Below are positions 20,978 through 51,254 of a stretch of 51,561 nucleotides of DNA, piece by piece. Under the pieces are notes generated by a model that was given only the letters and a program-made list of their open reading frames with translations, did no database searches and had not been told where the DNA came from. The DNA is from Stenomitos frigidus ULC18 (lineage in GTDB: Bacteria; Cyanobacteriota; Cyanobacteriia; Leptolyngbyales; Leptolyngbyaceae). The stretch spans positions 1 to 51,561 of the forward strand of contig NZ_PVWK01000125.1 of NCBI RefSeq assembly GCF_003003795.1. Direction: 5' to 3'. Numbering within the stretch: position 1 is the stretch's first letter; each line of letters opens with the position of its first letter. Both the position numbers and the translations under genes were made by a program.

Positions 20978-21889
20978 TTATTTCACTAACCATTGCGTCA
21001 TTTGCCGCCACGTTGCCAGGTCGCCGTTGCTGGCGACAAGCAGTGCATTTAGATCATCAAAATCTCGGTGAATGCTATCTTTTAAACCTTGTGCTTTAGC
21101 TTGGTAGGCTGCAAGTTTTTCTGGGTTTGACTGTCCTTGTAACAGATAGTGCTGGAAGTACTCAAATAAAGCAATAAGCGTTTGAAACGGCAGCACAAGC
21201 TGAGGATTATTCAATGAGCTTGCATACGCTTCATAGGTAGGCACATCGCCTCGAATAATCAAATATTCCAGGTAGTTAAGTTTTACAAAAGGATTGTTGG
21301 GAAACTGCTCAAGCGATCTTTGCATGAGCTCCAATGAGCGATCGACCTGATGCTGCTTCAACAGCAATAGCGCATACCGCTTCACCGCCCAGGTGTAGGC
21401 TGGATTTTGCTGCAAAACTGATTGGTATACCCGTTCAGCGGCATCTAACTGATTGTCTTTCTCCAGAAAGTAAGCGTAGTGCGAAAGCGTCCACAGATCG
21501 TCAGCATAGCCATTTTTGAGAGCTATTTGATACCATTGTTCTGCCTGATCCATTAACAGATTGCGCTCTAGAATGTAAGCATAGTAGTCTGCACCCTCGG
21601 TACGATCGCCCTGCTGAAACGCCTGCTGTAGATAAAAAAGAGCAGTTTGATATTGGTAAGCTTTTCCGTAGCACTGACCGATGCCGAAATACGTGTCAGC
21701 AGTGGGTTGTTGTTGCAGCAGGTAGTCATAGAGCGGCAGCGCAACATTGTAGATGTCTTGATGACGTAAAAACTCAGCAGTTTCGACGATCGTCGAGATC
21801 GAATAGGTTTGATACGTCGTCAGAATTGAGTCATAGTCTTTGGCCTGAGCCAGGTTGATCAAAGCGCTGGTTTGAAGGGTGCTACGCAT
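20978..21889 (-). CDS. tetratricopeptide-repeat protein
   Basis: A 303-residue all-helical protein with TPR-like units across most of its length, for example NVALPLYDYLLQQQPTADTY, QTALFYLQQAFQQGD, AERVYQSVLQQNPAYTWAVK and RSLELMQRSLEQFPNNPFVK. The start at 21889 is preferred because GGAGAA lies about 8 bases upstream; the longer frame to 22039 lacks a site. It is the last minus-strand gene after the polyketide core, about 190 bp beyond the hydrolase stop, and converges with NACHT gene 1. TPRs mediate protein contacts. It could be a scaffold for the synthase or be unrelated. Function unknown. Confidence 0.75.
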   Translation of the reverse strand: MRSTLQTSALINLAQAKDYDSILTTYQTYSISTIVETAEFLRHQDIYNVALPLYDYLLQQQPTADTYFGIGQCYGKAYQYQTALFYLQQAFQQGDRTEGADYYAYILERNLLMDQAEQWYQIALKNGYADDLWTLSHYAYFLEKDNQLDAAERVYQSVLQQNPAYTWAVKRYALLLLKQHQVDRSLELMQRSLEQFPNNPFVKLNYLEYLIIRGDVPTYEAYASSLNNPQLVLPFQTLIALFEYFQHYLLQGQSNPEKLAAYQAKAQGLKDSIHRDFDDLNALLVASNGDLATWRQMTQWLVK

Positions 21890-22080
21890 CGCGATCGTTC
21901 TCCACTGAAAAGTTGCTGTGACAAAAGAGCCCGATAGTCTAAGAGAATGTTTGAAAAGCCGCGTAGCATTGGCGACTTCAGTCGCAGCGACACAGGCACA
22001 AACCAGTTTCAACGATGCGATCGGCGATCGCGTCTGCAAAGCTGTCGTCCCAACCTCTGCATTGGTTCAAAATGATGAAT

Positions 22081-22905
22081 TTACACCGGACAGACTGCCG
22101 ATCGAGACTGCTGCAAAAAGTGAGCCAGTGTCGCTGCAACCGTTGCTGCCTGCTCAACGTGGACGTAGTGACCCGCACCAGGAAGCGTCACCAGTGAGGC
22201 ATTGGGAAGCGCTCGCTGCAAGAGTTTGGATTTGCGCGGGGAGATAATCACGTCATCATCTCCCGTCACAACTAGGGCGGGCATCGGCAAGGTAGGCAGC
22301 GCAGCGCGGAGATCAGCCTGATTTAAATCCATGAAATCCGCTGCCTCTGAAGCGAGCCGCAGATGTTGAAATTCATTCAGCACCAGTTGCTTCAAATTCT
22401 CTGCAATGTCCGGCGCAAAACTCTGTTGCAGTGAGGCGTAGTCCCAGTCTCCGGTGAGCGCCTGCTGCAGAAAATCGGGGTGGAGTTGGATTTGGGCAGA
22501 GGTTGCCATCAACACCAGTCGATCGACCCGGTGCGGGTAGCTCAGAGCAAACTGGATACCCAGCAAGCCTCCGGCAGAATGTCCTACGTAACAGACGGGG
22601 TTGGTGATCCCTAGCGCGTCGAGAAACGCGTCCAGAAACGCCGCGATGTCGGCGATCGAAGGCAGCACAGTTCCTTCCGAAGCTCCGTGTCCGGGGAGAT
22701 CGATCGCTACGGGAAAGAGCCCCGGCTCCATTGGCATCGCAAACCAGGCTTTCAGCATCGGTTCCCAGTGGCAACTGCTGCCACCTGCACCATGCACCAG
22801 CAGCACCAGCTGATCATCGCTAGAGGAAGGTAAGCCCCAAGGGGCAATATAGCGGGTGTTTAGCCCGCTGCATTGAATGGATAGCATAGGACGTGACGTT
22901 AGCAT
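22081..22905 (-). CDS. alpha/beta hydrolase, possible product-release thioesterase
   Basis: A 274-residue alpha/beta-hydrolase with oxyanion motif VHGAGG (38-43), nucleophile elbow GHSAGG (Ser110), an acid in VTGDDDVIIS and the catalytic His in GAGHYVHVE. No signal peptide is seen. The ATG overlaps the salicylate synthase stop (ATGCTAA), so translation is coupled and the gene belongs to the polyketide operon. Likely roles are hydrolytic release of the finished chain from the ACP, editing of stalled or mis-primed ACP, or ester cleavage in tailoring. An internal ATG at 22887 is an alternative start. Family certain, role inferred. Confidence 0.88.
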   Translation of the reverse strand: MLTSRPMLSIQCSGLNTRYIAPWGLPSSSDDQLVLLVHGAGGSSCHWEPMLKAWFAMPMEPGLFPVAIDLPGHGASEGTVLPSIADIAAFLDAFLDALGITNPVCYVGHSAGGLLGIQFALSYPHRVDRLVLMATSAQIQLHPDFLQQALTGDWDYASLQQSFAPDIAENLKQLVLNEFQHLRLASEAADFMDLNQADLRAALPTLPMPALVVTGDDDVIISPRKSKLLQRALPNASLVTLPGAGHYVHVEQAATVAATLAHFLQQSRSAVCPV

Positions 22906-24221
22906 TTCATTACCAGATTGGACAGCATCGTGTTCATCTTGTTGACGGACTCGACGTATTCGTTCTCTGGAACCGACTCTGCCACAATGCCTGCGCCTGC
23001 ATTCAGGTAGACGCAGTCGCCGTACTGATATGCCGAGCGGATGGCGATCGCCAGATCGGTTTCGCCTTTGCTGTTAATCCAGCCGATTGCGCCTGCATAA
23101 AGGCCACGCGGCTCGTCTTCCAGGCGATCGATCCACGCCAAGGCTCGTTCTTTGTTGATGCCCGATACGGTGATGCCAGGAAACAGGACTTTCATCGCAT
23201 CCCACAACGTTTTATCGGGCTTCAGTTGTCCGCCAACTCGGGACGAGAGGTGCTGCACCGTGCGATACTTCTTCACTTCCATGAAATCGAACACCTGCAC
23301 GGTGTCTGCCTGGCACACCGAGGCGATTTCGGTCTGCGCTAGCCAGATCGATAGGGCGTGCTCTTTCACTTCTTTGGCATCGGTAAAGAGCTCATTGTGC
23401 AGTCGAGCATCTGCTTCGGGGTCTTGGTCGCGTGGTCGCGTGCCTGCCAGTGGATTCGTCACCACAAAGCCGTCTGGGCTCACTTCCATAAAGATTTCAG
23501 GACTGAAGCCAACGGCGCAGACATCGCCCATGCGAAGGCAGTAGGAGCGAGCGGCATTGTTGTTGCGAGCACCCAGTGCATAGGTTCCCAAGACGTCCAT
23601 GTCACCTTTGACTTTGATTGATCGAGAAACAATCGCCTTTTGCAGTTCGCCGCTCTGAATCGCGCCGACGAGCGTTGCCACCTGATGCTGATACTGTTCG
23701 CTATCGGCAAAATCAACGACGGGTGGTGTCGCCGTGTATTCCGCTAGTTGCGAATCTGCAGCGATCGCCTTCTGGATTTTCTCTGGCGACTTGAGGCTAC
23801 GGATATAGATGCCTCTGGGAGTGCTAAAGATTTCGGTTTCTGGCACCGTGAATTGCACGATCGGCTGCTCGATCGCTTTCGAGTATGGGTAGTAGAAACG
23901 CGAAACATCAAAGCTGACGTAGCCATAAGCTGTCCAGTTTTCGACGGGCAACTCTGCCAGCAGCGCTTCCACTTGCTTCAGCGGATCCTGCGCCGGTTCC
24001 GACTGCTTACGACCCAAATAATTCATTGTCACGGCGGTTGAAGTCACGGTGACATGCGCCAGCGCATCCCCTGCAATTCGCACTTCGTCCCCATCCTGGT
24101 ACATCACATAGTCGGAAACAACCTGGGCAGACAAAAGATTCTGCAACACAAGCAGCGCATCCTTTTGACCCGGCAAAAAGAGTTCATGATACGCGACAAG
24201 ATCGGTAGCTAATTGGTACAT
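22899..24221 (-). CDS. salicylate synthase (MbtI/Irp9-type chorismate-utilising enzyme)
   Basis: A 440-residue member of the anthranilate/isochorismate/salicylate synthase superfamily, close to the usual length of Irp9 and MbtI. Visible features are GELQKAIVSRS (equivalent of the active-site Lys region), VGFSPEIFMEV, the NPLAGTRPR loop, the LFTDAKEVKEHALSIWLAQ segment, KYRTVQHLSSRV, LFPGITVSGINKERAL and the terminal GAGIVAESVPENEY. Family members convert chorismate to isochorismate and then salicylate plus pyruvate, with Mg2+. No separate isochorismate pyruvate-lyase gene is nearby, which favours the bifunctional type. AAGGAG precedes the ATG. Lying next to an aryl-acid ligase and a type II PKS, it most likely makes the starter unit. 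A plain isochorismate synthase is the alternative. Confidence 0.85.
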   Translation of the reverse strand: MYQLATDLVAYHELFLPGQKDALLVLQNLLSAQVVSDYVMYQDGDEVRIAGDALAHVTVTSTAVTMNYLGRKQSEPAQDPLKQVEALLAELPVENWTAYGYVSFDVSRFYYPYSKAIEQPIVQFTVPETEIFSTPRGIYIRSLKSPEKIQKAIAADSQLAEYTATPPVVDFADSEQYQHQVATLVGAIQSGELQKAIVSRSIKVKGDMDVLGTYALGARNNNAARSYCLRMGDVCAVGFSPEIFMEVSPDGFVVTNPLAGTRPRDQDPEADARLHNELFTDAKEVKEHALSIWLAQTEIASVCQADTVQVFDFMEVKKYRTVQHLSSRVGGQLKPDKTLWDAMKVLFPGITVSGINKERALAWIDRLEDEPRGLYAGAIGWINSKGETDLAIAIRSAYQYGDCVYLNAGAGIVAESVPENEYVESVNKMNTMLSNLVMKC

Positions 24222-24247: not shown

Positions 24248-24293
24248 CAATTCAAAATTCAGAATTTTGAATTATGAATTATGCATTATGCAT
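24248..24293. repeat. ATTCAAAATTC-type short tandem repeat
   Basis: AT-rich direct and inverted heptamers (ATTCAAAATTC, GAATTTTGAATT, ATGAATTATG) of the kind scattered in cyanobacterial spacers. The stop codon of the aromatase gene (24286) lies inside the array, so the repeat replaced or formed the 3' end of that gene. Confidence 0.75.
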
Positions 24294-24786
24294 TCGAGGC
24301 AGCGTAAGCGGCTAGGGGCTGTGGGATTGGAGCAGACCAAGCTTCAACTCGTTTTCTGATTGCTTGCATCTGGGTACGGGTGTTGCGGTTCAAAAAGGAT
24401 TCCATTTGCTCAGTCGTCCATTTGCACGCATCGTGCACTTCAAAGGTCTGCATCCAGGTCATCACAACACCTATGTTTTGAGGCAGTTCTTCGTAAGTCC
24501 AGTGGATTTTCATGTCCTTAAACGGGAAGGCTTTTTCAATGCGTTCTGCCGTTGCTTGCCGTCCCGGTTTGTCAATAATGCGGCGCGAAACCCAAGTGCG
24601 TGAGGGACGATCGCCCTCTGGATACGTCGTCAGGCTAAACACAACTTCGTTGCCCTTGCGTTCTAGTACTTCTGCTTTTTGATATTCGGTAAATAATTCC
24701 GTCCACACTTCGATCGCGTTTGTCAGATCAAATACCGTATCGAAATCACGCAGAATCACAATCGAATTTTCGGTGTAGCCAGTCAT
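24286..24786 (-). CDS. TcmN-like aromatase/cyclase (SRPBCC fold)
   Basis: A 166-residue START/Bet v1-like polyketide cyclase. It begins YTENSIVILRDFDTVFDLTN and carries the family landmarks VWTELFTEYQKAEVLER, RTWVSRRIID, MKIHWTYEELP and the long C-terminal helix FLNRNTRTQMQAIRKRVE. Single-domain members such as the TcmN N-terminal domain and WhiE-ORFVI relatives steer first-ring cyclisation and aromatisation of a nascent poly-beta-ketone on the ACP. AGGAGC precedes the ATG. ATTCAAAATTC repeats lie on both sides of the gene. The single domain fits a non-reduced chain, in agreement with the lack of a ketoreductase. Confidence 0.88.
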   Translation of the reverse strand: MTGYTENSIVILRDFDTVFDLTNAIEVWTELFTEYQKAEVLERKGNEVVFSLTTYPEGDRPSRTWVSRRIIDKPGRQATAERIEKAFPFKDMKIHWTYEELPQNIGVVMTWMQTFEVHDACKWTTEQMESFLNRNTRTQMQAIRKRVEAWSAPIPQPLAAYAASNA

Positions 24787-24901: not shown

Positions 24902-25696
24902 TCAGTTCACCATTGCGACCGCTCGAACCCAACTGGCATCTAGCCCTTTGACTTTGAGTGGAAAGCAGGAGACCTGAAAGCCGGTATCTGGAAGCTGATC
25001 GAGATTGGCTAACCGTTCAATCTGGATGTATTCGCACTCCCGACCGTAAAAGTGAGCGGGCCACAGATGCTCCCGATCGCCTGTGCGCCAGAAATCTTCC
25101 AGCATGGTAACGAAGGGGCGATCGAAGCCGTAGGTGTCAATGCCAATAACTTTGATGCCCTGCTGTGTGAGCCATTCGGTGGCTTCGCGGCTCATGCCGG
25201 GAGCGTGCGAGAAATATTCGCGCTTGCCCCACAGTTTGTCGGTTCCCGTCCAGAGCAGCACGATGTCTAGTGGTTGCAGCTTGTGTCCGGTGGCATCCAG
25301 CGCTACTTGGATGTCTTCGATCGTGATGAATGTTCCTGCGGCTTTGTGCCGCAAATCCAATCGCACTCCGGGCGCAAAGAACCACTCCAGTGGCAGTTGA
25401 TCGATCGATCGAGCGGGCTTGCCTTCGCAGTTGGGCCCGTAGTGAATCGGGGCGTCGATGTGTGTGCCCATGTGGGTTGGCAGCGTCACGGTGTCAAGCG
25501 TGATAAATGCTGCGTCCGGGAAGTCTTGGGGATACAGGCGGCGCGGATCGGCGGGTTGCTTCGCTGCATTGCGAGTTTCGACTTCGTGGCAAAAATGCTT
25601 TGCACCCTCAACGTGATCCAAGCGCTCGGTCTGCATCTTCAGCGGCTCCGACGGAGAATTTTCCACTAGAACGCTGAGATCAACCAATCGCTGCAC
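24902..25696 (-). CDS. PF04199 cyclase-family protein (metal-dependent polyketide cyclase)
   Basis: A 264-residue member of the cyclase/kynurenine formamidase-like family with the metal-binding signature HMGTHIDAPIHY (75-86). Relatives occur in aromatic polyketide clusters as later-ring cyclases. The start is a GTG at 25696: AAGGAGG lies 6 bases upstream, giving VQRLVDLSVLVENSP, the usual N terminus. The longer upstream frame is arginine-rich read-through of the neighbouring gene. The GTG start lies inside the end of the CMD-like gene, a 17-bp overlap implying coupled translation. Length and C terminus (FPLKVKGLDASWVRAVAMV) are normal for the family. Regiochemistry cannot be read from sequence. 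Confidence 0.87.
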   Translation of the reverse strand: MQRLVDLSVLVENSPSEPLKMQTERLDHVEGAKHFCHEVETRNAAKQPADPRRLYPQDFPDAAFITLDTVTLPTHMGTHIDAPIHYGPNCEGKPARSIDQLPLEWFFAPGVRLDLRHKAAGTFITIEDIQVALDATGHKLQPLDIVLLWTGTDKLWGKREYFSHAPGMSREATEWLTQQGIKVIGIDTYGFDRPFVTMLEDFWRTGDREHLWPAHFYGRECEYIQIERLANLDQLPDTGFQVSCFPLKVKGLDASWVRAVAMVN

Positions 25697-26024
25697 TGGC
25701 AACCTCCTTACGCGCAGTCGCGAGGCGAGTTTGAACCGTGTCGATCGCATCCACAGCCTGATCCAGCGCCAGATTTGTATCGGTAATGCCCACGATCGGC
25801 AAGGCCAACAAGATGGCAGCAATGATTTCTTCTTTGGTCGCACCTTCGTTCATTGCTCGCTCAACGTGAGTATCAATACCGCGTAAACCACGAGCCGCTG
25901 CGAAAATACCCAAAAGAATCAATTCGTTGGTTTTCTCATCGAGTGGCGAGTATTGCTTGACCGACTTTGCCAAATCGAAGAAGCCTTGAGCCACTCCAGG
26001 CGCTTCTTTCATCATGTTCTTCAT
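25680..26024 (-). CDS. carboxymuconolactone decarboxylase-like (AhpD fold) protein
   Basis: A 114-residue all-helical CMD-family protein. The core reads TNELILLGIFAAARG, then THVERAMNEGATKEEIIAAI. The CxxC redox pair of AhpD-type members is absent; the equivalent stretch is ARGLRGIDTHV. The His that often serves catalysis in decarboxylase-type members is kept. It is therefore not a peroxiredoxin partner and more likely acts on a carbon acid, as a cyclase or decarboxylase. GGAGCAAAGACC precedes the ATG. It overlaps the PF04199 cyclase by 17 bp, which argues for joint action, perhaps as one ring-forming pair. Confidence 0.82.
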   Translation of the reverse strand: MKNMMKEAPGVAQGFFDLAKSVKQYSPLDEKTNELILLGIFAAARGLRGIDTHVERAMNEGATKEEIIAAILLALPIVGITDTNLALDQAVDAIDTVQTRLATARKEVASAAIG

Positions 26025-26267: not shown

Positions 26268-26657
26268 CTATTCATGAATGATGTGCCCATCCTTGGGAGA
26301 GGGTGCTAGCGGTCCGGCGGCGAAGACAACGCGAATTTCTTCATCTCCGGTGTTTTCGATGGAATGTACCGCTCCTTGAGGAGTCAAAACGGCTTCTCCT
26401 GGCTTAAACGGCATGACGCCAACACCTTCGATGATGATTTCCCCCTGGCCTTGCAGGACATAGAAACACTCTTCCCCATGCGGGTGAGCGTGGCGCAACA
26501 CGCGCCCACCCACAGGTACCGTCGCCGTTCCCATGATTAAATGTGTGGACTGCACACTGGTTGGCGAAATCAGTACGTGGATTTCGCCACCCCGGTCTTC
26601 GATCGTGGGAACCTCCGTTGCATTCATGACCAGTCGTCTCAATTGTTGGGTTGTCAT
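26268..26657 (-). CDS. cupin-fold polyketide cyclase candidate
   Basis: A 129-residue single cupin with motif 1 HAHPHGEECFYVLQG and motif 2 PGEAVLTPQGAVHSIEN, so the metal-binding His-His-Glu-His set is complete. Small cupins of this type occur in type II PKS clusters; RemF (resistomycin) and TcmJ (tetracenomycin) are the precedents, and RemF is a structurally known metal-dependent cyclase. The position between the aryl ligase and the CMD gene supports a ring-closure role. Start uncertain: ATG 26657 has no clear site, and ATG 26627 gives a product beginning MNATEVPTIED. A dioxygenase is an alternative. Confidence 0.82.
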   Translation of the reverse strand: MTTQQLRRLVMNATEVPTIEDRGGEIHVLISPTSVQSTHLIMGTATVPVGGRVLRHAHPHGEECFYVLQGQGEIIIEGVGVMPFKPGEAVLTPQGAVHSIENTGDEEIRVVFAAGPLAPSPKDGHIIHE

Positions 26658-26741: not shown

Positions 26742-28307
26742 CTAAACAATCTGCCGTACAGGGACACTTGCATTCAGATTTACAAGCGCTTTGCGGTGGA
26801 TTTTCCCAGTGGGTGTGCGGGGCAGTTTTTCCAGGAAATGAATCACTTTGGGCGCTTTGAAATGCGGTAGACAAGCTTTCGCTAATTTCCGAATGCTGTC
26901 TTCGAGTTCTGGTGAACCTGTAAAGCCAGTCTTAAGCGTGATAAACGCCACCACGTAGGGGAGCGATTCCTGTGCGTCGCCTTGAGGGACAACGGCAACA
27001 TCCAGGACGCTTTCGTGTTGTAGCAGGGCTTCCTCGATATCGAACGGCGATACCCATTGACCATTGATTTTGAACAAATCATCTTTGCGGCCCATGAACC
27101 AGAAGAAACCTTCGGCGTCGCAGCGATACTGATCGCCCGTGCGGATGCTGTGACCGTAGATAACGTTGCGGGTTTCGTCGAGGCGGTTCCAGTAGCCCAA
27201 CATCAAGCTCTCACCTGTGACTTGCAAGGTGCCAATTTCGCCGATCGTCACTGGATAACCTTGATCATTCAGAATTTGCACTTCATAGCCAGGCACCGGA
27301 AAGCCAGAGCTTCCTGGTTGGCATTCTCCCGGTCGGTTAGACAGGAAAATATGCAGCAGTTCAGTGGTGCCAATGCCCTCGCAGATTTCATAGCCGTAAG
27401 CTTGAAACCACTTAGTCCAAATCGTTTTGGGCAATTGCTCCGCCGCAGACAAACATAGTCTCAAGCGCGTCGTTTCCAGCAGCGCGATTTCTCGCACCGC
27501 TAAAATGCTGGCGTAGGTGGAAGGTACGCCAAACAAAACCGTCGGCTGATAGTGATTTAAATCGGCGATGATGTCGAAGGCGTTGGCGGCATCGGACAGT
27601 ACCGACGCCGCACCGACTGCCATCGTCATATAGAGCGTATTGCCCAGCCCGTAGGCAAATGGCATCTTGGCAACCGAATACGTGATGTCGTTTTCGTGCA
27701 AGCCAAGGATATCTTTGCCGTAGTGTTCCGCCGACACTACCATGCTGGCGTGCCGATGCACGACCCCTTTTGGACGCCCCGTACTGCCGGACGTATAGAG
27801 CCAGAAGGCAGGCTCGTTGGGAGACGTCCGAGCGGGCGTTGCTTCTTTGCTGGTTTGGTCGAGGCGTGAACGGAACGGCTCTTCGCCATCGACTAGCAGC
27901 ACCTCGCTCAGAAACTCAGACTTGATTTCAGACAGCTTTTCGTGCCACATCTGCGAGGTGAGCAACACTTTGGCACGACAGTTTTGGATGATGTATTGGA
28001 TGTCGTCGATCGTGCAGGCCGTGTTGATGGGTACCGGCACCGCTCCTGCCCAAAGCGCTCCCCAAAAGGCAAAGACTAATTCTGGAGAATCGGGCAGCAG
28101 AATAGCGATACGGTTTTCCCGCTCTAAACCTAGCTGCCTCAATACGGTAGCCGCCCGACGCACATAGCTCCGCACTGTGCGATAAGTGTACGTCTCATCG
28201 CGATAGTAAAAGGCGATGCGTTCGCTGTGCCCTCGCGACAAACTGCCTTCAATAAAATACGCTGCAATGTTGAAAACATCGGGTAGCCGTTCGCAAATGC
28301 GGTCCAT
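26742..28307 (-). CDS. benzoate-CoA-ligase-like aryl-acid adenylating enzyme
   Basis: A 521-residue ANL-superfamily enzyme. The ATP loop is YTSGSTGRPKG (171-181), followed by the aromatic-acid-type region MPFAYGLGNTLYM, then GIGTTELLHIF, the hinge GRKDDLFKINGQW and the A10 Lys in TPTGKIHRKAL (Lys502). These look more like benzoate-CoA ligases than DhbE/MbtA siderophore ligases. The start at 28307 has GGGAG upstream. With a salicylate synthase in the same operon, the likely substrate is salicylate, activated as acyl-adenylate and passed to CoA or directly to the ACP. Enterocin's EncN loading benzoate on an ACP is a precedent. Substrate is inferred. Confidence 0.88.
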   Translation of the reverse strand: MDRICERLPDVFNIAAYFIEGSLSRGHSERIAFYYRDETYTYRTVRSYVRRAATVLRQLGLERENRIAILLPDSPELVFAFWGALWAGAVPVPINTACTIDDIQYIIQNCRAKVLLTSQMWHEKLSEIKSEFLSEVLLVDGEEPFRSRLDQTSKEATPARTSPNEPAFWLYTSGSTGRPKGVVHRHASMVVSAEHYGKDILGLHENDITYSVAKMPFAYGLGNTLYMTMAVGAASVLSDAANAFDIIADLNHYQPTVLFGVPSTYASILAVREIALLETTRLRLCLSAAEQLPKTIWTKWFQAYGYEICEGIGTTELLHIFLSNRPGECQPGSSGFPVPGYEVQILNDQGYPVTIGEIGTLQVTGESLMLGYWNRLDETRNVIYGHSIRTGDQYRCDAEGFFWFMGRKDDLFKINGQWVSPFDIEEALLQHESVLDVAVVPQGDAQESLPYVVAFITLKTGFTGSPELEDSIRKLAKACLPHFKAPKVIHFLEKLPRTPTGKIHRKALVNLNASVPVRQIV

Positions 28308-28350
28308 GCGACTATCTCCCTTGAAGTGGTCTAGTATCCCTTGAAGTGAT

Positions 28351-28716
28351 CTAATAAGTGAGGACGTGAACCAGCACGTAGTCATCCCAGCAGCACCAGG
28401 TTGCTAGCCAGTGCTGAACGCCGTTGATCATCGCCTGCCGCTGAGCGGCTCCCTGTAGCTGAATGGTTAAGCCAGATGGGTCGATCGCGGTTTCAATCTC
28501 GTTCCAGCCAATGTCGGCGAGTCCGGTTCCCAGTGCTTTTCCCACCGCCTCTTTGGCACAGAAGCACACAGCATAATGCTGGTAAGGATAAGAGACAGAT
28601 TGGCAATGATCGATTTCACGCGTTGTAAACACCAGGCTCAAAGTGTCGCGATCGTAGCGTTTGACCCAGTTGGCAACGCGGCTGATTGATTCCAAGTCAA
28701 TACCAATTCCCATCAT
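28351..28716 (-). CDS. AcpS-type holo-ACP synthase (4'-phosphopantetheinyl transferase)
   Basis: A 121-residue AcpS-family enzyme with both metal/catalytic landmarks: GIGIDLESISR (Asp7) and CFCAKEAVGKALGTG (Glu56, Lys60). It transfers phosphopantetheine from CoA to the ACP serine. The ATG has ACGGAG upstream, and the gene begins 11 bp after the ACP stop, so it is almost certainly dedicated to that ACP. Cyanobacteria usually rely on one Sfp-type transferase for all carriers, so a cluster-borne AcpS is a sign of import from another lineage or of a carrier the host enzyme does not accept. Confidence 0.9.
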   Translation of the reverse strand: MMGIGIDLESISRVANWVKRYDRDTLSLVFTTREIDHCQSVSYPYQHYAVCFCAKEAVGKALGTGLADIGWNEIETAIDPSGLTIQLQGAAQRQAMINGVQHWLATWCCWDDYVLVHVLTY

Positions 28717-39490: not shown

Positions 39491-39492
39491 CT

Positions 39493-42605: not shown

Positions 42606-42611
42606 TAACCC

Positions 42612-43667: not shown

Positions 43668-43673
43668 GAAATT

Positions 43674-43773
43674 CTCAATGATGAATTTTGAATTTTGAAC
43701 TAGCGGATAGATTTCAATCACCTTTGCAATTCAAAATTCGTAATTCAAAATTCAAAATTCAAAACTCAAAATT
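43674..43773. repeat. ATTCAAAATTC repeat array before the P450 gene
   Basis: Two blocks of direct and inverted ATTCAAAATTC/GAATTTTGAATT units separated by about 30 bp of unique DNA. They form a potential long hairpin between the methyltransferase and the P450 gene. GGAG downstream of the array serves the P450. Confidence 0.8.
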
Positions 43774-43788
43774 GTATGGAGTTCTCCC

Positions 43789-45129: not shown

Positions 45130-45199
45130 CGCCCCACTGCCCATACGCAGCATTCTACACACAGTCATTCATTCAACGTTCAAATGCGAGGTTTGTCCG

Positions 45200-46264
45200 A
45201 TGGAATTTCTGAAGAACTATTGGTATCCGCTTGTTCTCTCCTCAGATGTTTCTGCTGTTAAGCCGTATGGAACGTCTCTACTCGGAGATCCATTGGTGCT
45301 GTTTAGAGATCGCACGGGCAAGGTGCTTTGCCTACACGATTCTTGCCCACATCAAGGTGTGCCGCTTTCGATCGGAACGGTGAAAGCGGGAAGCATCGAG
45401 TGCGCTTATCACGGGTGGCAGTTTGGCGAGAGCGGCAACTGTACGAAAATTCCCTGTTTAGCGGACGATGCCACACTGCCCAAAGGTGCCAGGTGTCAGT
45501 TTGCCTACCCGACAGAAGAACGCCTGGGCGTGGTTTGGGTCTTTGCTGGAGCAGCGGCGGACGCACCCCCACTGCGTTTACCAGAGGGCACCACTGAAGC
45601 GGGCTGGGTGCATGACGTCATTGTCCGAGAGCAGGATATTCCGCACAAGTTAATGATCGCAGGCGGTCTGGATTTTGCTCATTTCCCTTTTCTACACACG
45701 AAGTCGATCGCCAGTAAAAAGCAGCGAGACTATTTGCGATCGCTTGAAGTCAGCTTGAGCGAGTATGAATATGGCATGACCATGATGGTCAAAAATGCCG
45801 ATGGTGAAGACTACAACGATTTTGTTTACTCGTTTGAGCCGCCGTGTTTAGTCAAGGTGGCGATCGAGCCCAAGCCAGGCTGGCGACTGATTGCTAGCGA
45901 TTACTTTGTGCCGCTGTCAGGAAATAAGACGAGGCTGTTTGTGTTTGAAGCAAGAGATTGGCTGACGTGGAACCCACTCGTGAGTCGATCGCTCAGACGT
46001 AAAGCCAACCAAATTCTTGACGAAGATCTGCCGATTCTCAGAGCGCAAACCGAGTGGCATAACCATGGCTATGGAGACTGGAAATGTACTGTGAAGCCAG
46101 ACCTGCTCTCGCTGAGATATCGTCAGTGGTACGATCGCAAAGCGCGAGAATTTGCCACTGCTTCAATCTCTCAACCGTATGAATTGAGTAATGAATTGAA
46201 AAATTGCGTTCTGGTCGAAGGAGAAATGCCATCAGTAACACAGCCTGAAGCAGTTGGATTGTAG
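45200..46264 (+). CDS. Rieske-type non-heme iron oxygenase
   Basis: A 354-residue oxygenase. The Rieske cluster ligands are Cys49-Pro-His51 and Cys68-x2-His71 (CPHQGVPL and CAYHGWQF). The mononuclear iron site is in the GGLDFAHFPFLH stretch (D-x2-H-x4-H). No C-terminal membrane helices are seen, unlike pheophorbide a oxygenase, though the domain is of that general type. GAGG precedes the ATG; the gene is 70 bp behind the P450 and ends the tailoring operon. It would perform a further hydroxylation, demethylation or oxidative ring rearrangement. No reductase partner is in the window. Confidence 0.92.
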   Translation: MEFLKNYWYPLVLSSDVSAVKPYGTSLLGDPLVLFRDRTGKVLCLHDSCPHQGVPLSIGTVKAGSIECAYHGWQFGESGNCTKIPCLADDATLPKGARCQFAYPTEERLGVVWVFAGAAADAPPLRLPEGTTEAGWVHDVIVREQDIPHKLMIAGGLDFAHFPFLHTKSIASKKQRDYLRSLEVSLSEYEYGMTMMVKNADGEDYNDFVYSFEPPCLVKVAIEPKPGWRLIASDYFVPLSGNKTRLFVFEARDWLTWNPLVSRSLRRKANQILDEDLPILRAQTEWHNHGYGDWKCTVKPDLLSLRYRQWYDRKAREFATASISQPYELSNELKNCVLVEGEMPSVTQPEAVGL

Positions 46265-46602
46265 CTAAAATAGCGGTCTGATTCAACCTCATTAAAATGC
46301 GACCTTCGCAGCGATTATATGTGCTGAAGATTAGTGATTTTAATCCAGATTTTCAGCACAAATTTGTTGTTTTCACGGTTAATTAATGATGCTTTATATA
46401 TTTTTTCTGGCTTATAACCATAGCATTATTTCATTTAAAGGCATCCATAAAATCCAGTTGAATTGCGTATTTTCACTCATTCTTCTTACAGTAGAAAAAG
46501 TGAAGAAGATTACTTAAATTAGCCTGTGACGTCTCTACCAAAACCTTGAGATCGCGGTAAAGATATTTAGTATCGAGTTCACCTTAAGCAAGGAGTTTCA
46601 CT
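46265..46602. other. AT-rich spacer
   Basis: About 340 bp with no recognisable gene. It lacks the 11-bp direct-repeat element that precedes the other plus-strand units. AAGGAG just before 46603 is the ribosome binding site of the next gene. Confidence 0.45.
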
Positions 46603-47754
46603 ATGCCTATTGCCATAGATACTGTACAGCTAGGTCAAGAAATTGAAAAAGCTGCGTATAACTTTACTTCAATCACTAACGGTTTTCACGTACCTTATCG
46701 TGCTTTTCGACAAGCCACCATTAACAACAATGGGCTCGTTGTCTTCGAAGCATTCTTTACTGCTGAAGCGCCACCTGCAGCAATCTTGGCTGGCGATGGC
46801 GTTGGCCTCACGACGATTGCAGACAAACCCAGCACAGGAGCAGACATCGTCTTTATTCCATCGCTCAACTTAGATGGCGTGGTATCGTTCACAGGCAATC
46901 AGTTCGGTCCTGGTATCGGCGCTCCACCTGCAGCCAGCGGCATCTTTACCAATAGTGACGGCAACTTCACAACCGTTGCCGATCGCAGCACCAGCAGCGG
47001 TCCATTCGGTAACTTCCTCTTTTTGGGTGGCAGCGACATCAACGATGTCAAAGACGTTGCCTTCTTAGGCATCACCAATCAATCTGAGGTTGGCATTTTC
47101 ATCGCTGATGGCGGAGAGATTGTGCCGATCGCTGTGACCAGCGGTGAGTTCGATTCATTTGAGAAGCAAATAAACACAGTGGGCGGTGATGGACCGATTA
47201 CGGGCGTGTATCCCTTCCTGGCGTTCAATAATACAGGTAACGTCTTTTTCACCGCAAGTCTGGATAGCGGGGAGCGGGGAATCTTCAGCAGCGGCGAGGC
47301 GAATGAGGCGATCGTAGACAGCAAGGGCGTGTTTGACTTGTTTGGTTCACCTTCGGTCAACGACAACGGAGCCGTCGCGTTCCTGGCTCAACTGGATAAC
47401 CATGAAGCCGGAATTTTCACGATCGACACCAATGCCATTCTGACCACTGTTGCCACCACAGAGGGGCCGTTCAGTGCGTTTTTGTCGGACCCATCCATTA
47501 GCCCTGATGGTAAAGTGGCTTTTCAGGCAAGGTTGGATGATGGCAGCGAGGGGATCTTCGTTGGCTCTGACCCTCGAACCGGAAAGGTCATTGGGGTCGG
47601 TGATGTGGTGGCGGGTTCTACGGTTACCCAGCTATTCTTCACAGGCAGGGAAGCCTTCAATGGGCTGGGTCAAATCGCGTTTGGGGCAACGCTAGCAAAT
47701 GGAACGAACGGCATCTTCCGCGCTGATCCAATTTCGTCGGGCCTGAGTTGTTAG
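46603..47754 (+). CDS. beta-propeller-like repeat protein (DUF7453-like)
   Basis: A 383-residue protein built from repeating strands of the pattern VAFxAxLDDGSxGIF: GVVSFTGNQFGPGIG, DVAFLGITNQSEVGIF, NVFFTASLDSGERGIFSS, AVAFLAQLDNHEAGIF, KVAFQARLDDGSEGIFVG, QIAFGATLANGTNGIF. About 6-7 such blades suggest a beta-propeller. Relatives in cyanobacteria are usually exported proteins with PEP-CTERM or other anchors. Here there is no signal peptide and no anchor, only a C-terminal SSGLSC, so it looks cytoplasmic. AAGGAG precedes the ATG. A propeller inside a biosynthetic locus could be a binding protein or an enzyme. Function unknown. Confidence 0.75.
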   Translation: MPIAIDTVQLGQEIEKAAYNFTSITNGFHVPYRAFRQATINNNGLVVFEAFFTAEAPPAAILAGDGVGLTTIADKPSTGADIVFIPSLNLDGVVSFTGNQFGPGIGAPPAASGIFTNSDGNFTTVADRSTSSGPFGNFLFLGGSDINDVKDVAFLGITNQSEVGIFIADGGEIVPIAVTSGEFDSFEKQINTVGGDGPITGVYPFLAFNNTGNVFFTASLDSGERGIFSSGEANEAIVDSKGVFDLFGSPSVNDNGAVAFLAQLDNHEAGIFTIDTNAILTTVATTEGPFSAFLSDPSISPDGKVAFQARLDDGSEGIFVGSDPRTGKVIGVGDVVAGSTVTQLFFTGREAFNGLGQIAFGATLANGTNGIFRADPISSGLSC

Positions 47755-47756
47755 GG

Positions 47757-47820
47757 ACTTGCAAACAAATAGTATCCCAGCGTAGGGGCATGGCAATGCC
47801 ATGCCCCTACTTGCAAACAA
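47757..47820. repeat. palindromic element flanked by 12-bp direct repeats
   Basis: A perfect palindrome (two 14-nt arms and a 1-nt centre, 47782-47810; arm GTAGGGGCATGGCA) lies between two exact copies of ACTTGCAAACAA (47757-47768 and 47809-47820). The direct repeats look like a target duplication, or like a unit that moves with the palindrome. The palindrome recurs, with one base missing, at 49210-49237. The strong hairpin may also end transcription of the propeller gene. Confidence 0.7.
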
Positions 47821-47871
47821 TGTGTCGATTTTATTTAATCCGCGATCCTTAGCGATCTTCTCACGATTGCG

Positions 47872-48273
47872 TCAGGGTAACTGTTGCAGGTGCCCTTTTT
47901 GCTGTGTTGAATACAGCAGCACTGTGGCGGCAGCAAATTCACCAGAGTGGCTGATCGAGGTATCGATCGCAAGCCTCTGTTCCTGACACCACTGCGCCAA
48001 CGGACCAACCAGCCCAATCCAGGGACGCCCAGTGGCACTATGACGCACTTCAACATCTGCGAAGGTGCAATCTGGATGGGCACTATGAGCGATCGCGCTC
48101 ATAAAGGCTGCTTTGGCGCACAAAATGCCTGCAAACGACGCTAAAGGGTTTGTTTTGCTGAGACAATAGCTGCGCTCATAGGATGAAAAATACTCAACGT
48201 CACTCAGCAGCAGCGTGCGATTGATGTCTACGATCGCTTGAATCACGCTTTTGATTACTAGCACCAGTAACAA
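47872..48273 (-). CDS. degenerate AcpS-like phosphopantetheinyl transferase
   Basis: About 120-130 residues with AcpS-family layout: IVDINRTLLLSDVEYF at the N terminus, FAGILCAKAAFMSAIA in the middle, FADVEVRHSATGRPWIGLVG and a C-terminal ISHSGEFAAATVLLYS. The Asp of the metal site is kept (IVDI), but the essential Glu of AKEA is Ala (AKAA), so the usual Mg/CoA site is damaged. The start is uncertain: no ribosome binding site, and a TTG at 48273 or an internal GTG are both possible. It reads against its neighbours. Either a decaying second AcpS or a neofunctionalised relative. Confidence 0.65.
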   Translation of the reverse strand: MLLVLVIKSVIQAIVDINRTLLLSDVEYFSSYERSYCLSKTNPLASFAGILCAKAAFMSAIAHSAHPDCTFADVEVRHSATGRPWIGLVGPLAQWCQEQRLAIDTSISHSGEFAAATVLLYSTQQKGHLQQLP

Positions 48274-48399
48274 TTAAAGTGATTGGAATTTTTTAATTAT
48301 ATTCTTTCCCATGATCCAAAGTGCAACACCCAGTTCAATAAACACTACAGCTCTAAATTGTTTCATCTGGCTTGTCAATCTTGCTCAGCAAAACAGGCG

Positions 48400-48440
48400 C
48401 AACCTAACCCTAACTTCCACAGTCCTGGTTCATTCGTTAG
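48400..48440 (+). promoter_or_regulatory. direct-repeat activator site before the late unit
   Basis: CAACCTA at 48400-48406 and TAACTTC at 48411-48417 repeat with an 11-bp period, the third copy of AACCTAnnCCTAACYT. A TTAGAC at 48438-48443 is a weak -10 candidate. The gene at 48517 follows about 75 bp downstream, in the arrangement seen before the ABM gene. Confidence 0.6.
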
Positions 48441-48516
48441 ACATTCTCACGCTGCGTGTATGTAAGACTGAGAACTAGTTTCGGTTGTCTGCAAACCTGA
48501 TGCCCCTCACAAATAT

Positions 48517-49062
48517 ATGATGCAGTCTTTACTCGAAGTCCACTCCAAAGAGAAAGCCAGAGAATCTTTTCGTCGTCCTCAGCAGACTGACACCATCCCG
48601 TTTAATCGAGTTAATCACAAAGCTCGCACGGCTCCACAGAAAGTTTATTCACGTTTAAATCGCAAAGTAGACGCTCTTTCAAAAAGGCTTCGTGCCCCGC
48701 TCGAACGGTCTCAAACCACTAGCACCTCACTGTCCGTTCAATTTCCGATCGCTGGCAGCAACCGTGTGGAAGCCGTTCGCTATATTGAACCGAGGCACGA
48801 TCAGGAAGGGCAGATTTGGATTAACCAAACGCAGTATTTTGAAGGCGTATCACACGCGCTTTGGGACTTTTCTTTGGGCGGACGGCAAGTTTGTCAGAAG
48901 TGGCTTCAGGAGCGTCAGGATTGTACGCTGTGTGAGCAAAGTATCCAGCACTATCAACGCATGGTGACGATTCTGAAGGATGTGGTTGAACTGATGGCAA
49001 GCAGCGATCGCGCCCTTCACGGACAGTCTCGTAACAGTTTGACCTCTGCAGTGTCTTACTAA
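48517..49062 (+). CDS. stand-alone type ISP restriction-enzyme specificity domain protein
   Basis: A 181-residue protein. Residues about 85-165 (GQIWINQTQYFEGVSHALWD, SLGGRQVCQKWLQERQD, IQHYQRMVTILKDVVELM) match the C-terminal specificity domain found at the end of type ISP restriction-modification polypeptides, in which it recognises DNA. Here the helicase, nuclease and methyltransferase parts are absent. In their place is a basic N-terminal stretch of about 75 residues (many Arg/Lys, for example VYSRLNRKVDALSKRLRAPL). The gene is preceded by the shared direct-repeat promoter and followed by a methyltransferase and the acyltransferase. A DNA-binding regulator is conceivable. No clear ribosome binding site precedes the ATG at 48517. 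Confidence 0.72.
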   Translation: MMQSLLEVHSKEKARESFRRPQQTDTIPFNRVNHKARTAPQKVYSRLNRKVDALSKRLRAPLERSQTTSTSLSVQFPIAGSNRVEAVRYIEPRHDQEGQIWINQTQYFEGVSHALWDFSLGGRQVCQKWLQERQDCTLCEQSIQHYQRMVTILKDVVELMASSDRALHGQSRNSLTSAVSY

Positions 49063-49072
49063 AAACATAGAC

Positions 49073-49182
49073 AGGACTTACGCATTTGCCCCCTAGCACC
49101 CAATTCTGGGGGCTTTAATAAGCTCAGTTCCCCCAATTTTGGGGGCTAGGGGGCGAACTTCGACAGCTTTTGCGTAAGTCCT
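49073..49182. repeat. 110-bp hairpin MITE
   Basis: Perfect 12-bp terminal inverted repeats: AGGACTTACGCA at 49073-49084, its complement at 49171-49182. Inside are CCCCCTAGCACCCAATT and a matching CCCCCAATTTTGGGGG-CTAGGGGG block, so almost the whole element can fold on itself. Typical of small non-autonomous elements in cyanobacteria. It lies between the type-ISP-domain gene and the second methyltransferase. Confidence 0.8.
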
Positions 49183-49209
49183 GATAGATCAAACAAGATT
49201 GAATTTCTG

Positions 49210-49237
49210 GTAGGGGCATGGCAATGCCATGCCCTAC
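49210..49237. repeat. GTAGGGGCATGGCA palindrome, second copy
   Basis: Near-perfect palindrome with the same arms as 47782-47810, one C missing in the right arm. No flanking direct repeat here. It sits 44 bp before the second methyltransferase gene and could attenuate transcription into it. Confidence 0.75.
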
Positions 49238-49280
49238 AGAGTGGCAGATTCATTAGTAATCACCTCAATGGATTGAACTC

Positions 49281-50351
49281 ATGGTTGTAGCGAAATCAGA
49301 CCCTAGAAAACAGGCAGACGATCGTGCAACAAGTGCACCAACAATGCCACCTCAAGTAGCGATGATGCAAATGGCAAATGCCTATCGCGTCTCGCAGGCA
49401 ATCCATGTGGCAGCAAAATTGGGCATTGCAGATGTGTTGTCTGATGGTGCAAAAAGCATTCCTGTTCTTGCAGCGGCGACACAAACTCATCCACAAGCGC
49501 TCTATCGCCTGCTACGAGCGCTTGCCAGCATGGGGATTTTTGCCGAAACTGAAACGGGTGAATTTGCCTTAACTCCGCGTGCAGCAACGCTGCGCTCAAA
49601 CGTTCCTGGTTCTCTGAGAGACTACGCGATCGTTCTGGGTGAAACGTGGCACTGGCAGACCTGGGGAGACATTCTCTACAGCGTGCAAACTGGGCAACCC
49701 GCGTTCGATCACCTCTACGGGATGGAGTTTTTGGACTACCTCGCCCAACATCCTGACCTTGCCAGCGCGTTCGATCGCAGCATGGTCAGCCTGCTGGAAA
49801 CGATCGATAACGGCATTCTCGCCCACTACACCTTCACGAAGACAATCGTCGAAGTCGGCATTCCCGGTGGCTATGGGTCTTTGCTGGCGCGCATACTCAA
49901 AGCGGACTCCAGCTTGAGCGGTATCTTCTTTGATCTGGCGCCCGGCATTGCCCTGGCACAATCGCTGCTGACGGCTCAAGGAGTGAGTGATCGTTGCCAG
50001 TTAACCACTGGGGACGTGTTTGAGTCGCTGCCTCAAGGCGGGGATGTCTACATTCTCAAGAATCTGATTCACGACTGGGATGATGACACCGCAGGCAAAA
50101 TCTTGCAGAACTGCCGCAAGGCGATGCATGAGACGGCCAAGCTGTTAGTGGTGGAGATGCTTATTCCACCAGGCAATGCCCCCGCGCTCAGCAAAATCAT
50201 CGACATTGAAGCACTGATTATGTCGGCAGGTGGCTACGAGCGGACTGAAGCGCAGTATCGATCGCTGTTTGCCATCGCAGGCTTAACTGTAACCAAGGTC
50301 ATTGCGACGCGATCGCCGTTCAGCCTCATCGAAGCTGTCCGTACAAACTGA
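49281..50351 (+). CDS. SAM-dependent O-methyltransferase (AcmB/Methyltransf_2 type), copy 2
   Basis: A 356-residue paralogue of the enzyme at 42612, similar throughout: PPQVAMMQMANAYRVSQAI, ALYRLLRALASMGIF, WHWQTWGDILYSVQTGQPAF, YGMEFLDYLAQHPDLASAFD, the catalytic His in NLIHDWDDDTAGKIL and GGYERTEAQYRSLFAIAG. The SAM loop reads IVEVGIPGGYGSLL (189-202) in place of VVDVGGGHG, with a two-residue insertion at the same place as copy 1 but keeping the first Gly. So at least two hydroxyls, or one hydroxyl and one other site, may be methylated. It follows a MITE and a palindrome, and the acyltransferase starts 36 bp downstream. Confidence 0.9.
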   Translation: MVVAKSDPRKQADDRATSAPTMPPQVAMMQMANAYRVSQAIHVAAKLGIADVLSDGAKSIPVLAAATQTHPQALYRLLRALASMGIFAETETGEFALTPRAATLRSNVPGSLRDYAIVLGETWHWQTWGDILYSVQTGQPAFDHLYGMEFLDYLAQHPDLASAFDRSMVSLLETIDNGILAHYTFTKTIVEVGIPGGYGSLLARILKADSSLSGIFFDLAPGIALAQSLLTAQGVSDRCQLTTGDVFESLPQGGDVYILKNLIHDWDDDTAGKILQNCRKAMHETAKLLVVEMLIPPGNAPALSKIIDIEALIMSAGGYERTEAQYRSLFAIAGLTVTKVIATRSPFSLIEAVRTN

Positions 50352-50387
50352 CCACTCATCGCTTTCCGACACAGGGAGACTTCATCA

Positions 50388-51254
50388 ATGAAGACCGCAT
50401 GGGTATTTCCGGGGCAGGGGTCGCAAACCGTGGGCATGGCAGATAAGTTGCTTCTGCCAGCAACAAAAATGCGCTTTGAGCAAGCAGAGCGTATACTTGG
50501 CTGGTCTGTGCCCGACCTGTGTCGTCAAGAAGATCGGCTCTTCCGCACTCTTTACACGCAGCCCTGTCTGTATACGGTCTCTGCAATCCTGGCAGAGCAA
50601 ATGGCAGAGCAACCAGATTTTGTAGCGGGTCACAGTTTGGGAGAGTACGTGGCGCTCTTTGCTGCGGGCGTGTTTAGCTTTGAGACCGGCTTGCAGTTGG
50701 TCAAACAGCGAGCATCATTGATGGATCGGGTGAGTACAGGCGGGATGATAGCGTTGATGGGAGTCGATCGCGCTCAACTCGAAACGCAATTGCAACAAAC
50801 GTCGAACGTTGTTCTTGCTAATGACAACCATCCAGGTCAGGTTGTGCTTTCCGGGCTAGCGGATGCCGTTCAAACCGTGCTGGCTCAGGTAAAATTTCGT
50901 CGAGCCGTCCCCCTGAAGGTAAGCGGCGCGTTTCATTCGCCCGTTGTGGCCGAAGCAGCGGCAGCGTTCCGTCAGATCTTGGAGTCTGTTCCCTTTAAAG
51001 CGGCTCAAATTCCAGTGATCTCAAATGTTGATCCAACGCCCGCAATCGACGCTGATATTTTAAAGGCGAGATTAATGCAGCAGATGACAGGCTCCGTTCG
51101 ATGGCGCGAAACGTCTTTAAGGCTAGCGATAGAGGGCGTTGAACGGGTAGTTGAAATTGGTCCCGGAACAGTTCTAACGGGATTGATTGAGCGAACCTGT
51201 GACAATCTCATTCTGGAAAATATCAGCAGTCCCTCTTACCCACTAACAGTTTGA
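50388..51254 (+). CDS. malonyl-CoA:ACP acyltransferase (FabD-like)
   Basis: A 288-residue discrete acyltransferase. It starts KTAWVFPGQGSQTVGMAD. The nucleophile is Ser83 in GHSLGEY, the substrate Arg is in KQRASLMD, the His is in SGAFHSPVV (His183), and the oxyanion Gln is in FPGQGSQ. Type II PKSs often borrow the housekeeping FabD; this one, at the far end of the locus behind a methyltransferase and with GGGAG before the ATG, is probably a dedicated malonyl supplier for the ACP at 28727. It is slightly shorter than a typical FabD (about 300-310). Last gene before the right-hand IS6 fragment. Confidence 0.9.
   Translation: MKTAWVFPGQGSQTVGMADKLLLPATKMRFEQAERILGWSVPDLCRQEDRLFRTLYTQPCLYTVSAILAEQMAEQPDFVAGHSLGEYVALFAAGVFSFETGLQLVKQRASLMDRVSTGGMIALMGVDRAQLETQLQQTSNVVLANDNHPGQVVLSGLADAVQTVLAQVKFRRAVPLKVSGAFHSPVVAEAAAAFRQILESVPFKAAQIPVISNVDPTPAIDADILKARLMQQMTGSVRWRETSLRLAIEGVERVVEIGPGTVLTGLIERTCDNLILENISSPSYPLTV

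Follow-up and report, generated by a model that had tools for sequence, protein, structure and literature searches.

Gene content of the locus

The window analysed here is the entire 51,561-base contig NZ_PVWK01000125.1 of the cyanobacterium Stenomitos frigidus ULC18 (genome 6.98 Mb). It carries a gene cluster which, on the evidence of its sequence, encodes a true type II polyketide synthase (PKS), and close to it a gene for the PF11208 protein YjdF. The minus-strand run of the cluster (32648-20978) comprises genes for an MTHFR-like protein, the ketosynthase KS-alpha, its partner KS-beta or chain length factor (CLF), an acyl carrier protein (ACP), AcpS, an aryl ligase, a cupin, a carboxymuconolactone-decarboxylase (CMD)-family protein, a PF04199 cyclase, an SRPBCC protein, a salicylate synthase, an alpha/beta hydrolase and a TPR protein. 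The plus-strand run (36011-51254) holds those for a HlyD/ABC exporter, an antibiotic biosynthesis monooxygenase (ABM), an O-methyltransferase (OMT), a cytochrome P450, a Rieske oxygenase, a DUF7453 protein, a Type_ISP_C-like protein, a second OMT and FabD. All gene classes that an earlier note on this DNA had named between 20978 and 51254 are present there by Pfam and NCBIfam profile matches, but its list was short, leaving out the MTHFR-like, DUF7453 and Type_ISP_C-like genes and two NACHT genes, all of which recur in relatives. The same note spoke of a complete locus and a full pathway, which is unproven since the contig edge lies 307 bases beyond the stop side of FabD (51254). The left limit of the locus lies further out than 20978, with yjdF at 17392 and a NACHT gene at 18611.

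The KS-CLF pair

The open reading frames (ORFs) of KS-alpha (30238-31527, minus strand) and CLF (29009-30241, minus strand) are adjacent and share a 4-base overlap, and KS-alpha has Cys177, His317 and His354, all as had been read earlier. The CLF aligns with Arg, Glu and His at these positions, the active-site Cys being replaced by Arg. A KS/CLF tree with FabF sequences, as the earlier note had suggested, was made of 64 rows from 40 loci, KS stretches of 330 residues or less being dropped, and both proteins of the window fall within a clade made up of nine rows from cyanobacteria and five from Firmicutes (100/100 in each case). On the KS side this clade joins the KSs of Actinobacteria, Ktedonobacteraceae and Nitrospirae (100/99), with the genome's own FabF placed elsewhere, and on the other side the CLF rows, 22 in number, group together (100/100), the fork between the cyanobacterial/Firmicute clade and the actinobacterial CLFs being weak (87/33). 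In this tree, which has no aryl-polyene or ladderane KSs among its rows, the pair does not group with FabF and stands beside type II PKS partners at 100% bootstrap, which upholds the claim of a type II PKS in a cyanobacterium. A FabF or fatty-acid pair is rejected on the basis of the tree and the Cys-less CLF, and an actinobacterial-type cluster by the tree position and the gene set.

The actinobacterial clusters compared (three Streptomyces plasmid clusters, Nonomuraea and Amycolatopsis) share the logic of a KS-alpha/CLF heterodimer and form a neighbouring group in the tree, and one of them has ABM genes. Where the Cys would be, their CLFs carry Gln or Glu, which is true of five of the six actinobacterial CLF rows, whereas Arg is found in the window and in Streptomyces sp. 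15-116A. The three Streptomyces clusters also encode a TcmI-type cyclase and an SDR/FabG reductase without counterpart in the window core. The closest relatives of the window cluster form the cyanobacterial/Firmicute clade and are not clusters of the tetracenomycin, resistomycin or enterocin type, to which the earlier note had likened its gene set.

Core and starter genes

The cluster was compared to ten cyanobacterial relatives, namely Phormidesmis priestleyi ULC007 (G430, of the window's family), Gloeocapsopsis crepidinum (G005, of the window's class), LEGE 10410 (G459), the metagenome-assembled genomes (MAGs) of a Myxosarcina (G070) and a member of the Chroococcidiopsidaceae (G400), and the genomes G395, G396, G397, G399 and G464. 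The genes of the window were sought in the fetched stretches of the relatives' loci and not in whole genomes (58 kb in ULC007, 76 kb in G396), and in one of these comparisons matches above 55 bits were counted, one per place. In all ten the genes run in the same order from KS to alpha/beta hydrolase, and in five Firmicutes (three examined by tblastn, two through their annotation and Pfam) this order is largely preserved; such conservation is not due to chance.

Starter supply is predicted to rest on the salicylate synthase (22899-24221, minus strand; TIGR03494, 344.8 bits against a cut-off of 325.15), whose best Protein Data Bank (PDB) matches are MbtI-type salicylate synthases and which keeps the motifs SPE, KE..EHA.S, VQHL and T.SGI.K of MbtI; these motifs have catalytic roles in MbtI-type enzymes. 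The predicted aryl (salicylate) CoA ligase or ACP loading enzyme (26742-28385, minus strand) scores 489 bits with TIGR02262 (cut-off 375.25), matches benzoate-CoA ligases best in the PDB and is 67% identical to its G396 orthologue, the probable gloSCL. The ACP (28727-28969, minus strand; PF00550) has the phosphopantetheine Ser34 in a DST motif, with Q31 and T35, and shares LRKDLQLDSTE with the ACP of G396; it is accompanied by a dedicated AcpS-type phosphopantetheinyl transferase (28351-28716, minus strand; PF01648, 8.6e-15). The cyclase-type proteins of the earlier note correspond to four genes, all on the minus strand: the cupin (26268-26657; PF07883), the small CMD-family protein (25680-26024; PF02627), the PF04199 cyclase (24902-25843; 1.3e-37) and the SRPBCC polyketide cyclase/aromatase-like protein (24286-24786; PF03364, 4e-8), which is 66-86% identical to its cyanobacterial relatives. 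The PF04199 ORF overlaps the CMD gene and probably starts about 50 residues too early, as several homologues align only from residue 52-55. The alpha/beta hydrolase (22081-22905, minus strand; PF00561), a candidate release or lactone-handling enzyme, follows the salicylate synthase in all ten relatives, and a homologue of the TPR protein (20978-22039, minus strand; TPR_19/TPR_14) lies in the locus of nine, none being seen in the G400 stretch. At the head of the operon, the MTHFR-like flavoprotein (31560-32648, minus strand; PF02219, 2.1e-26) precedes KS in eight of the ten, with no match in the G464 and G400 stretches. This operon head of most cyanobacterial clusters compared has no obvious role in polyketide chemistry.

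Export and tailoring genes

In ULC007 the cluster is a single block of the order Rieske-P450-OMT-OMT-ABM-ABC2-ABC2-ABC-HlyD-NACHT-MTHFR-KS-CLF and onwards, with identities of 68-89% except for the NACHT protein (55%) and the second OMT (47%). It follows that 36011-46264 belongs with the core, and the earlier assignment of the second half to the same locus is borne out for most of it. On the plus strand of the window this part encodes a HlyD-family membrane fusion protein (36011-37372; 75% in the ULC007 block), a tandem-ATPase ABC exporter subunit of the RbbA/DrrA-like type (37383-39392; 83%) and two ABC2 permeases (39457-40602 and 40774-41880; 83% and 84%), followed by ABM (42165-42515; PF03992; 69-78% in seven relatives), a first OMT (42612-43667; PF00891 and PF08100), the P450 (43789-45129; PF00067; 53-81% in seven relatives) and a Rieske/VanA-type oxygenase (45200-46264; PF00355 and PF19112).

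The remaining plus-strand genes encode a cluster-linked DUF7453/NxxGxxAF-repeat protein recognised by profile matches (46603-47754), a small protein resembling the specificity domain found in type ISP restriction enzymes (48517-49062; PF18135, 8e-17), a second OMT (49281-50351; OMT genes 43-56% identical occur in ULC007, G395-G397, G399, G400, G459 and G464) and a FabD-like malonyl transferase (50388-51254; TIGR00128, 317.7 bits, cut-off 260.9), which is a second genome copy in that contig C14 encodes another TIGR00128 protein over the cut-off. In G395, G396, G397 and G399 approximately 16-24 kb separate KS from the ISP-like gene, three OMTs, ABM and P450, and in G464 and G459 FabD and the ISP-like gene are beside the core and P450, the OMTs and ABM approximately 27-39 kb off. 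The ISP-like gene, of the stand-alone C-terminal specificity domain type, adjoins FabD or an OMT in seven relatives; the predicted structure of its product has a mean pLDDT of 44, too low for a fold search. DUF7453 homologues of 35-38% identity recur inside the PKS loci of six relatives (G395, G396, G397, G399, G459 and G464; none in the ULC007 stretch), though the family name holds no biosynthetic link.

Distribution of the cluster

With the genome itself counted throughout, an evenly drawn sample of 386 genomes of the phylum contains 3 with a CLF homologue of at least 72% identity, and the next matches in this sample are at 38%. Such homologues also occur in 2 of 42 genomes from the window's order, in 6 of the 19 from the family of G005 and in 3 of the 27 from that of G070; over all samples, 11 of 467 distinct cyanobacterial genomes are PKS-positive. 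The rarity of type II PKSs outside the Actinobacteria, as stated earlier, is right in this respect, though the kind was already known: KS-CLF pairs are described from 14 phyla including Cyanobacteria (PMC10132072), and a cyanobacterial example has been characterised (PMC11744666). None of six other genomes of the window's genus has a CLF homologue, suggesting horizontal transfer or repeated loss.

Outside the cyanobacteria, cassettes of the order KS-CLF-(ACP)-ligase-cupin-(CMD)-cyclase-SRPBCC, as in the window, were found in Orenia and Lapidilactobacillus by a contig scan and on plasmids of Priestia megaterium, Lactobacillus gasseri and Apilactobacillus kunkeei by a plasmid search, in which the best 15 of the best 30 CLF matches (out of 896 rows) were treated as cassette-type and 13 of these 15 are similar-sized A. 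kunkeei plasmids. Their CLFs are 39-51% identical to that of the window. Unlike the window, the cassettes L038, L049 and L050 have no match to a salicylate synthase of the window type, MTHFR, P450 or Rieske protein, and none is so annotated in the two lactobacillus stretches, where the starter may be scavenged. The lactobacilli in question come from honeybee (L142, A. kunkeei) and human (L141, L. gasseri) samples, in which an aryl-ligase type II PKS cassette is thus carried on small plasmids.

Comparison with gloPKS and proposed pathway

The closest characterised system is gloPKS, a type II PKS of Gloeocapsa sp. PCC 7428 that is described as thermorubin-like (PMC11744666). Its ligase gloSCL loads salicylate on gloACP, upon which KS-CLF forms C29 products with 11 malonyl units in vitro, and Q31, S34 and T35 are named as residues of gloACP (PMC11744666). 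These three residues are present in the ACPs of both the window and G396, and G396, judged by its ACP, is taken to be PCC 7428 or close kin. The window and G396 share the core gene order and approximately 60-82% protein identity over the core (KS 81, CLF 75, ligase 67 and salicylate synthase 71%), which in both consists of a cyanobacterial KS-CLF, ACP, phosphopantetheinyl transferase and salicylate-CoA ligase, and in both the ISP-like, OMT, ABM and P450 genes occur together. Compared to the 76 kb stretch of G396, the HlyD/tandem-ATPase/ABC2 exporter, Rieske, FabD and second NACHT genes are peculiar to the window, which has one OMT fewer. The earlier note knew of no product and would have taken a characterised identical cluster as a refutation; gloPKS comes near to this, but is homologous and not identical (PMC11744666). 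By protein similarity, the cluster belongs to the gloPKS/thermorubin kind and is not of an unknown kind. With it, a kind of which a single cyanobacterial system had been reconstituted reaches a further cyanobacterial order and shows a larger conserved locus. The thermorubin pathway of Laceyella sacchari likewise uses a salicylate starter from a salicylate synthase and builds an undecaketide backbone (McCord 2022, as cited in PMC11744666); the L. sacchari cluster did not appear among the 80 loci kept from the contig scan.

The cluster most probably encodes a type II polyketide pathway that is self-contained, primed with salicylate and of the gloPKS/thermorubin kind (probability roughly 0.8). 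In the scheme that we infer for this organism, which covers each chemical step, the chain length, product class and target as well as the roles of YjdF and the NACHT proteins, the salicylate synthase would convert chorismate into salicylate, which the aryl ligase would place onto the ACP after activation of the latter by the cluster's own AcpS. KS-alpha/CLF would then extend the starter with malonyl units, possibly loaded by the cluster's FabD, to a chain predicted to be C29 (salicyl plus 11 malonyl) by orthology with gloPKS. The SRPBCC, PF04199, cupin and CMD proteins may fold and aromatise this chain, ABM, Rieske and P450 may oxidise it, the two OMTs may methylate it and the HlyD-ABC system may export it. 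The product would be a planar, thermorubin-like and probably ribosome-directed polyketide, against which YjdF may protect its producer, and the HTH-NACHT NTPases may regulate the pathway.

Several observations weigh against this reading. None of the DUF7453, ISP-like and FabD genes turned up in the 58 kb stretch of ULC007, so that it is the other relatives, and not the nearest one, that tie the right end of the window to the core. Among the relatives' stretches, only that of ULC007 gave matches to the window's HlyD/ABC2 exporter, a Rieske gene was found in ULC007 (81%) and G464 (72%), with no match in the other eight, and FabD was found only beside the core in G070, G459 and G464 (54-58%), and G395, G396, G397, G399 and G464 have three OMTs against two in the window. 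The end products therefore probably differ between relatives. Furthermore, the CLF identity of 75% to G396 does not fix the chain length, the identity of G396 is itself only probable, as judged from its ACP, gloPKS gave complex product mixtures (PMC11744666), and L. sacchari belongs to a different phylum, the likeness of its cluster to the window being taken from the description in PMC11744666. A fatty-acid or polyene type of KS pair, which would make the cluster something other than an aromatic PKS, might be read from the best NCBIfam model of both KS-alpha and CLF, which is fabF (below its cut-off), and from the PDB matches of the CLF, the four best of which are FabF with the actinorhodin CLF 1tqy_B in fifth place. 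It is nonetheless very improbable in view of the tree and of the best PDB match of KS-alpha, 6smo_B (340 bits), which is labelled a PKS_KS domain protein, ranks above all FabF entries and which we take to be AntD of Photorhabdus; no ketoreductase or dehydratase family is among the Pfam matches of the core, which does hold a salicylate synthase, an aryl ligase and cyclases. The alternative that the type II PKS uses another aryl starter or chain length and makes a different aromatic class has more to be said for it. The clades differ from one another in their tailoring and transport genes, the Firmicute cassettes have no match to or annotation of a salicylate synthase, so that salicylate is not a fixed feature of the whole clade, and gloPKS also gave products without salicylate (PMC11744666). 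The cluster's own salicylate synthase over a curated cut-off and a ligase and KS/CLF close to those of G396 make this alternative unlikely, and favour the salicylate-primed, thermorubin-like pathway.

YjdF and its riboswitch

Just outside 20978-51254, the yjdF gene (17392-17808, plus strand) encodes a full-length YjdF/DUF2992 protein (PF11208, 4.1e-38, 131 bits, positions 1-132 of 132, over the gathering score). It lies 3.2 kb from the TPR gene and probably starts at 17392, the listed ORF beginning at 17038. PF11208 is found in 11 of 11 PKS-positive and 2 of 456 PKS-negative cyanobacterial genomes, among the matches listed for the 467 genomes searched (24 of 386 genome rows in the case of the phylum sample). 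The two PKS-negative carriers are G020 and G431, the latter with a PF11208 fragment of 40 positions only. Fisher's exact test of this co-occurrence gives p 1.5e-20 with kinship ignored, and p 0.0035, 3.7e-5 and 3.4e-4 within three clades. The association of YjdF with the PKS is a new result. The distance between yjdF and CLF is 7-23 kb in seven genomes (the window, G395, G396, G397, G399, G459 and G464) and 160 kb in ULC007, and the two are on different contigs in G005, G070 and G400. YjdF is also near four of the five Firmicute cassettes: 3.7 kb before KS in P. megaterium, approximately 9.7 kb after CLF in Orenia, where it is cut by the locus end, directly after the hydrolase in L. gasseri and directly after the SRPBCC gene in A. 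kunkeei. In the fifth (L050) the contig ends approximately 240 bases after the hydrolase. No YjdF was found in 73 other KS loci (L051-L123), many of them shorter than 21 kb, or in the short flanks of L044-L048 and L050. An IS6-family transposase (16032-16634) lies just left of yjdF in the window, a hint of mobility.

Immediately before yjdF, its riboswitch RF01764 (cut-off 45 bits) is present in P. megaterium (82.6 bits), Orenia (90.9 bits) and the cyanobacterium G400 (70.9 bits), the aptamers lying at 8455-8564 of L038, 20705-20816 of L049 and 3205-3312 of the cyanobacterial L170. The YjdF of G400 shares 68-70% identity with its counterparts in G396, G397 and G399, and the G+C content of the contig that encodes it matches that of the PKS contig, so that a stray Firmicute contig is unlikely. 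In the window no RF01764 was detected at the gathering score, and 16600-17500 gave none even when E values up to 1 were admitted. In G459, G464, G070, G005, G396, G397 and G399 none was detected with E values up to 10, and L141, L142 and L050 had none either. The window thus resembles the known yjdF azaaromatic riboswitch system in its full-length PF11208 gene but does not have the riboswitch.

In excerpts of papers from 2016, 2020 and 2024 the function of YjdF and the natural ligand of its riboswitch are given as unknown (PMC4793209, PMC7266159, PMC10987639). The yjdF RNA binds large planar compounds and acts as an ON switch, detoxification being the favoured guess (PMC4793209), and the tetracyclic part of thermorubin stacks on rRNA bases (PMC9938272). 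A search confined to one open-access collection returned no paper joining yjdF and polyketide synthase, and for thermorubin with riboswitch it returned a single paper, in which the words occur once and twice. As planar ligands bind the RNA, thermorubin stacks on RNA bases and producers carry yjdF, a planar polyketide antibiotic is a natural candidate for the signal. It is tentatively proposed, at somewhat less than even odds, that YjdF serves the self-protection of bacteria that make aryl-primed type II polyketides, and that such planar, thermorubin-like polyketides are a natural signal of the yjdF riboswitch. Co-occurrence with one pathway in cyanobacteria and proximity to Firmicute cassettes would in that case name a compound class as candidate ligand and toxin, and bacteria with yjdF but without the pathway would keep a resistance gene against such polyketides.

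Against this proposal stands the absence of RF01764, at the gathering score, before 10 of the 11 cyanobacterial yjdF genes. The riboswitch ligands reported so far contain nitrogen and thermorubin contains none. YjdF may instead serve biosynthesis or regulation within the cassette, or may have travelled along passively as the cluster moved, a possibility that is itself somewhat less likely than not. The position of yjdF directly behind biosynthetic genes in two lactobacillus plasmids speaks for it, as do the other contig in 3 of 11 cyanobacterial genomes and the 160 kb in ULC007, and knockout of YjdF in Bacillus subtilis left the sensitivity to the azaaromatics tested unchanged (PMC4793209). 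Mere carriage, however, sits poorly with a gene kept at a distance in four genomes, and the ON-control by planar compounds suggests detoxification (PMC4793209). YjdF is also not needed for biosynthesis only, since it is found without the pathway. B. subtilis has PF11208 as well, and 44 of 59 distinct plasmid YjdF records (17 and 43, with one in common) are outside the 15 cassette-type CLF matches; three of these 44 contexts were examined and have no PKS annotated nearby. This pattern fits resistance but is no proof of it. There is no Streptomyces among the plasmid YjdF matches.

One plasmid with yjdF and without a PKS, from Priestia sp. J2 (L171, yjdF at approximately 15001-15414), has a macrolide 2'-phosphotransferase, a dihydrofolate reductase and GNAT acetyltransferases around the gene and thus a resistance-like setting. 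The neighbour of yjdF in P. megaterium is annotated as a TrmH-family RNA methyltransferase gene, which would fit a ribosome-directed product. The predicted structure of the window's YjdF has a mean pLDDT of 59, too low for a fold search, and the YjdF profile gave two matches among PDB sequences (E 0.12 and 0.38), taken as noise.

NACHT NTPases and surrounding genes

NACHT genes flank the core on both sides; ULC007 also has two, and one each is found in the stretches of G395-G397, G399, G400, G005, G459 and G464. The first NACHT NTPase (18611-20953, plus strand; PF05729 and PF22727) has a weak N-terminal helix-turn-helix (HTH) of the Cro/C1 type (HTH_3, 21.2 bits, just under the cut-off of 23), and its homologues are 65% identical near the TPR gene in ULC007 and 49-53% identical in G395-G397, G399, G400 and G005. 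The second (33270-35618, plus strand; PF05729 and PF22727) is divergent from MTHFR and scores 22.1 bits with HTH_26 (cut-off 22). A role in phage defence was rejected as the PADLOC matches (PDC-S60) are weak and confined to the NTPase part. The helix-turn-helix matches just under or at the cut-off favour a role as regulators, and the two HTH-NACHT NTPases are possible candidates for STAND-type regulators of the cluster. At the far left of the window, 1896-8548 encodes a very large protein of kinase, AAA, GAF, PAS and histidine-kinase type, after which comes a gene for a LuxR-type response regulator.

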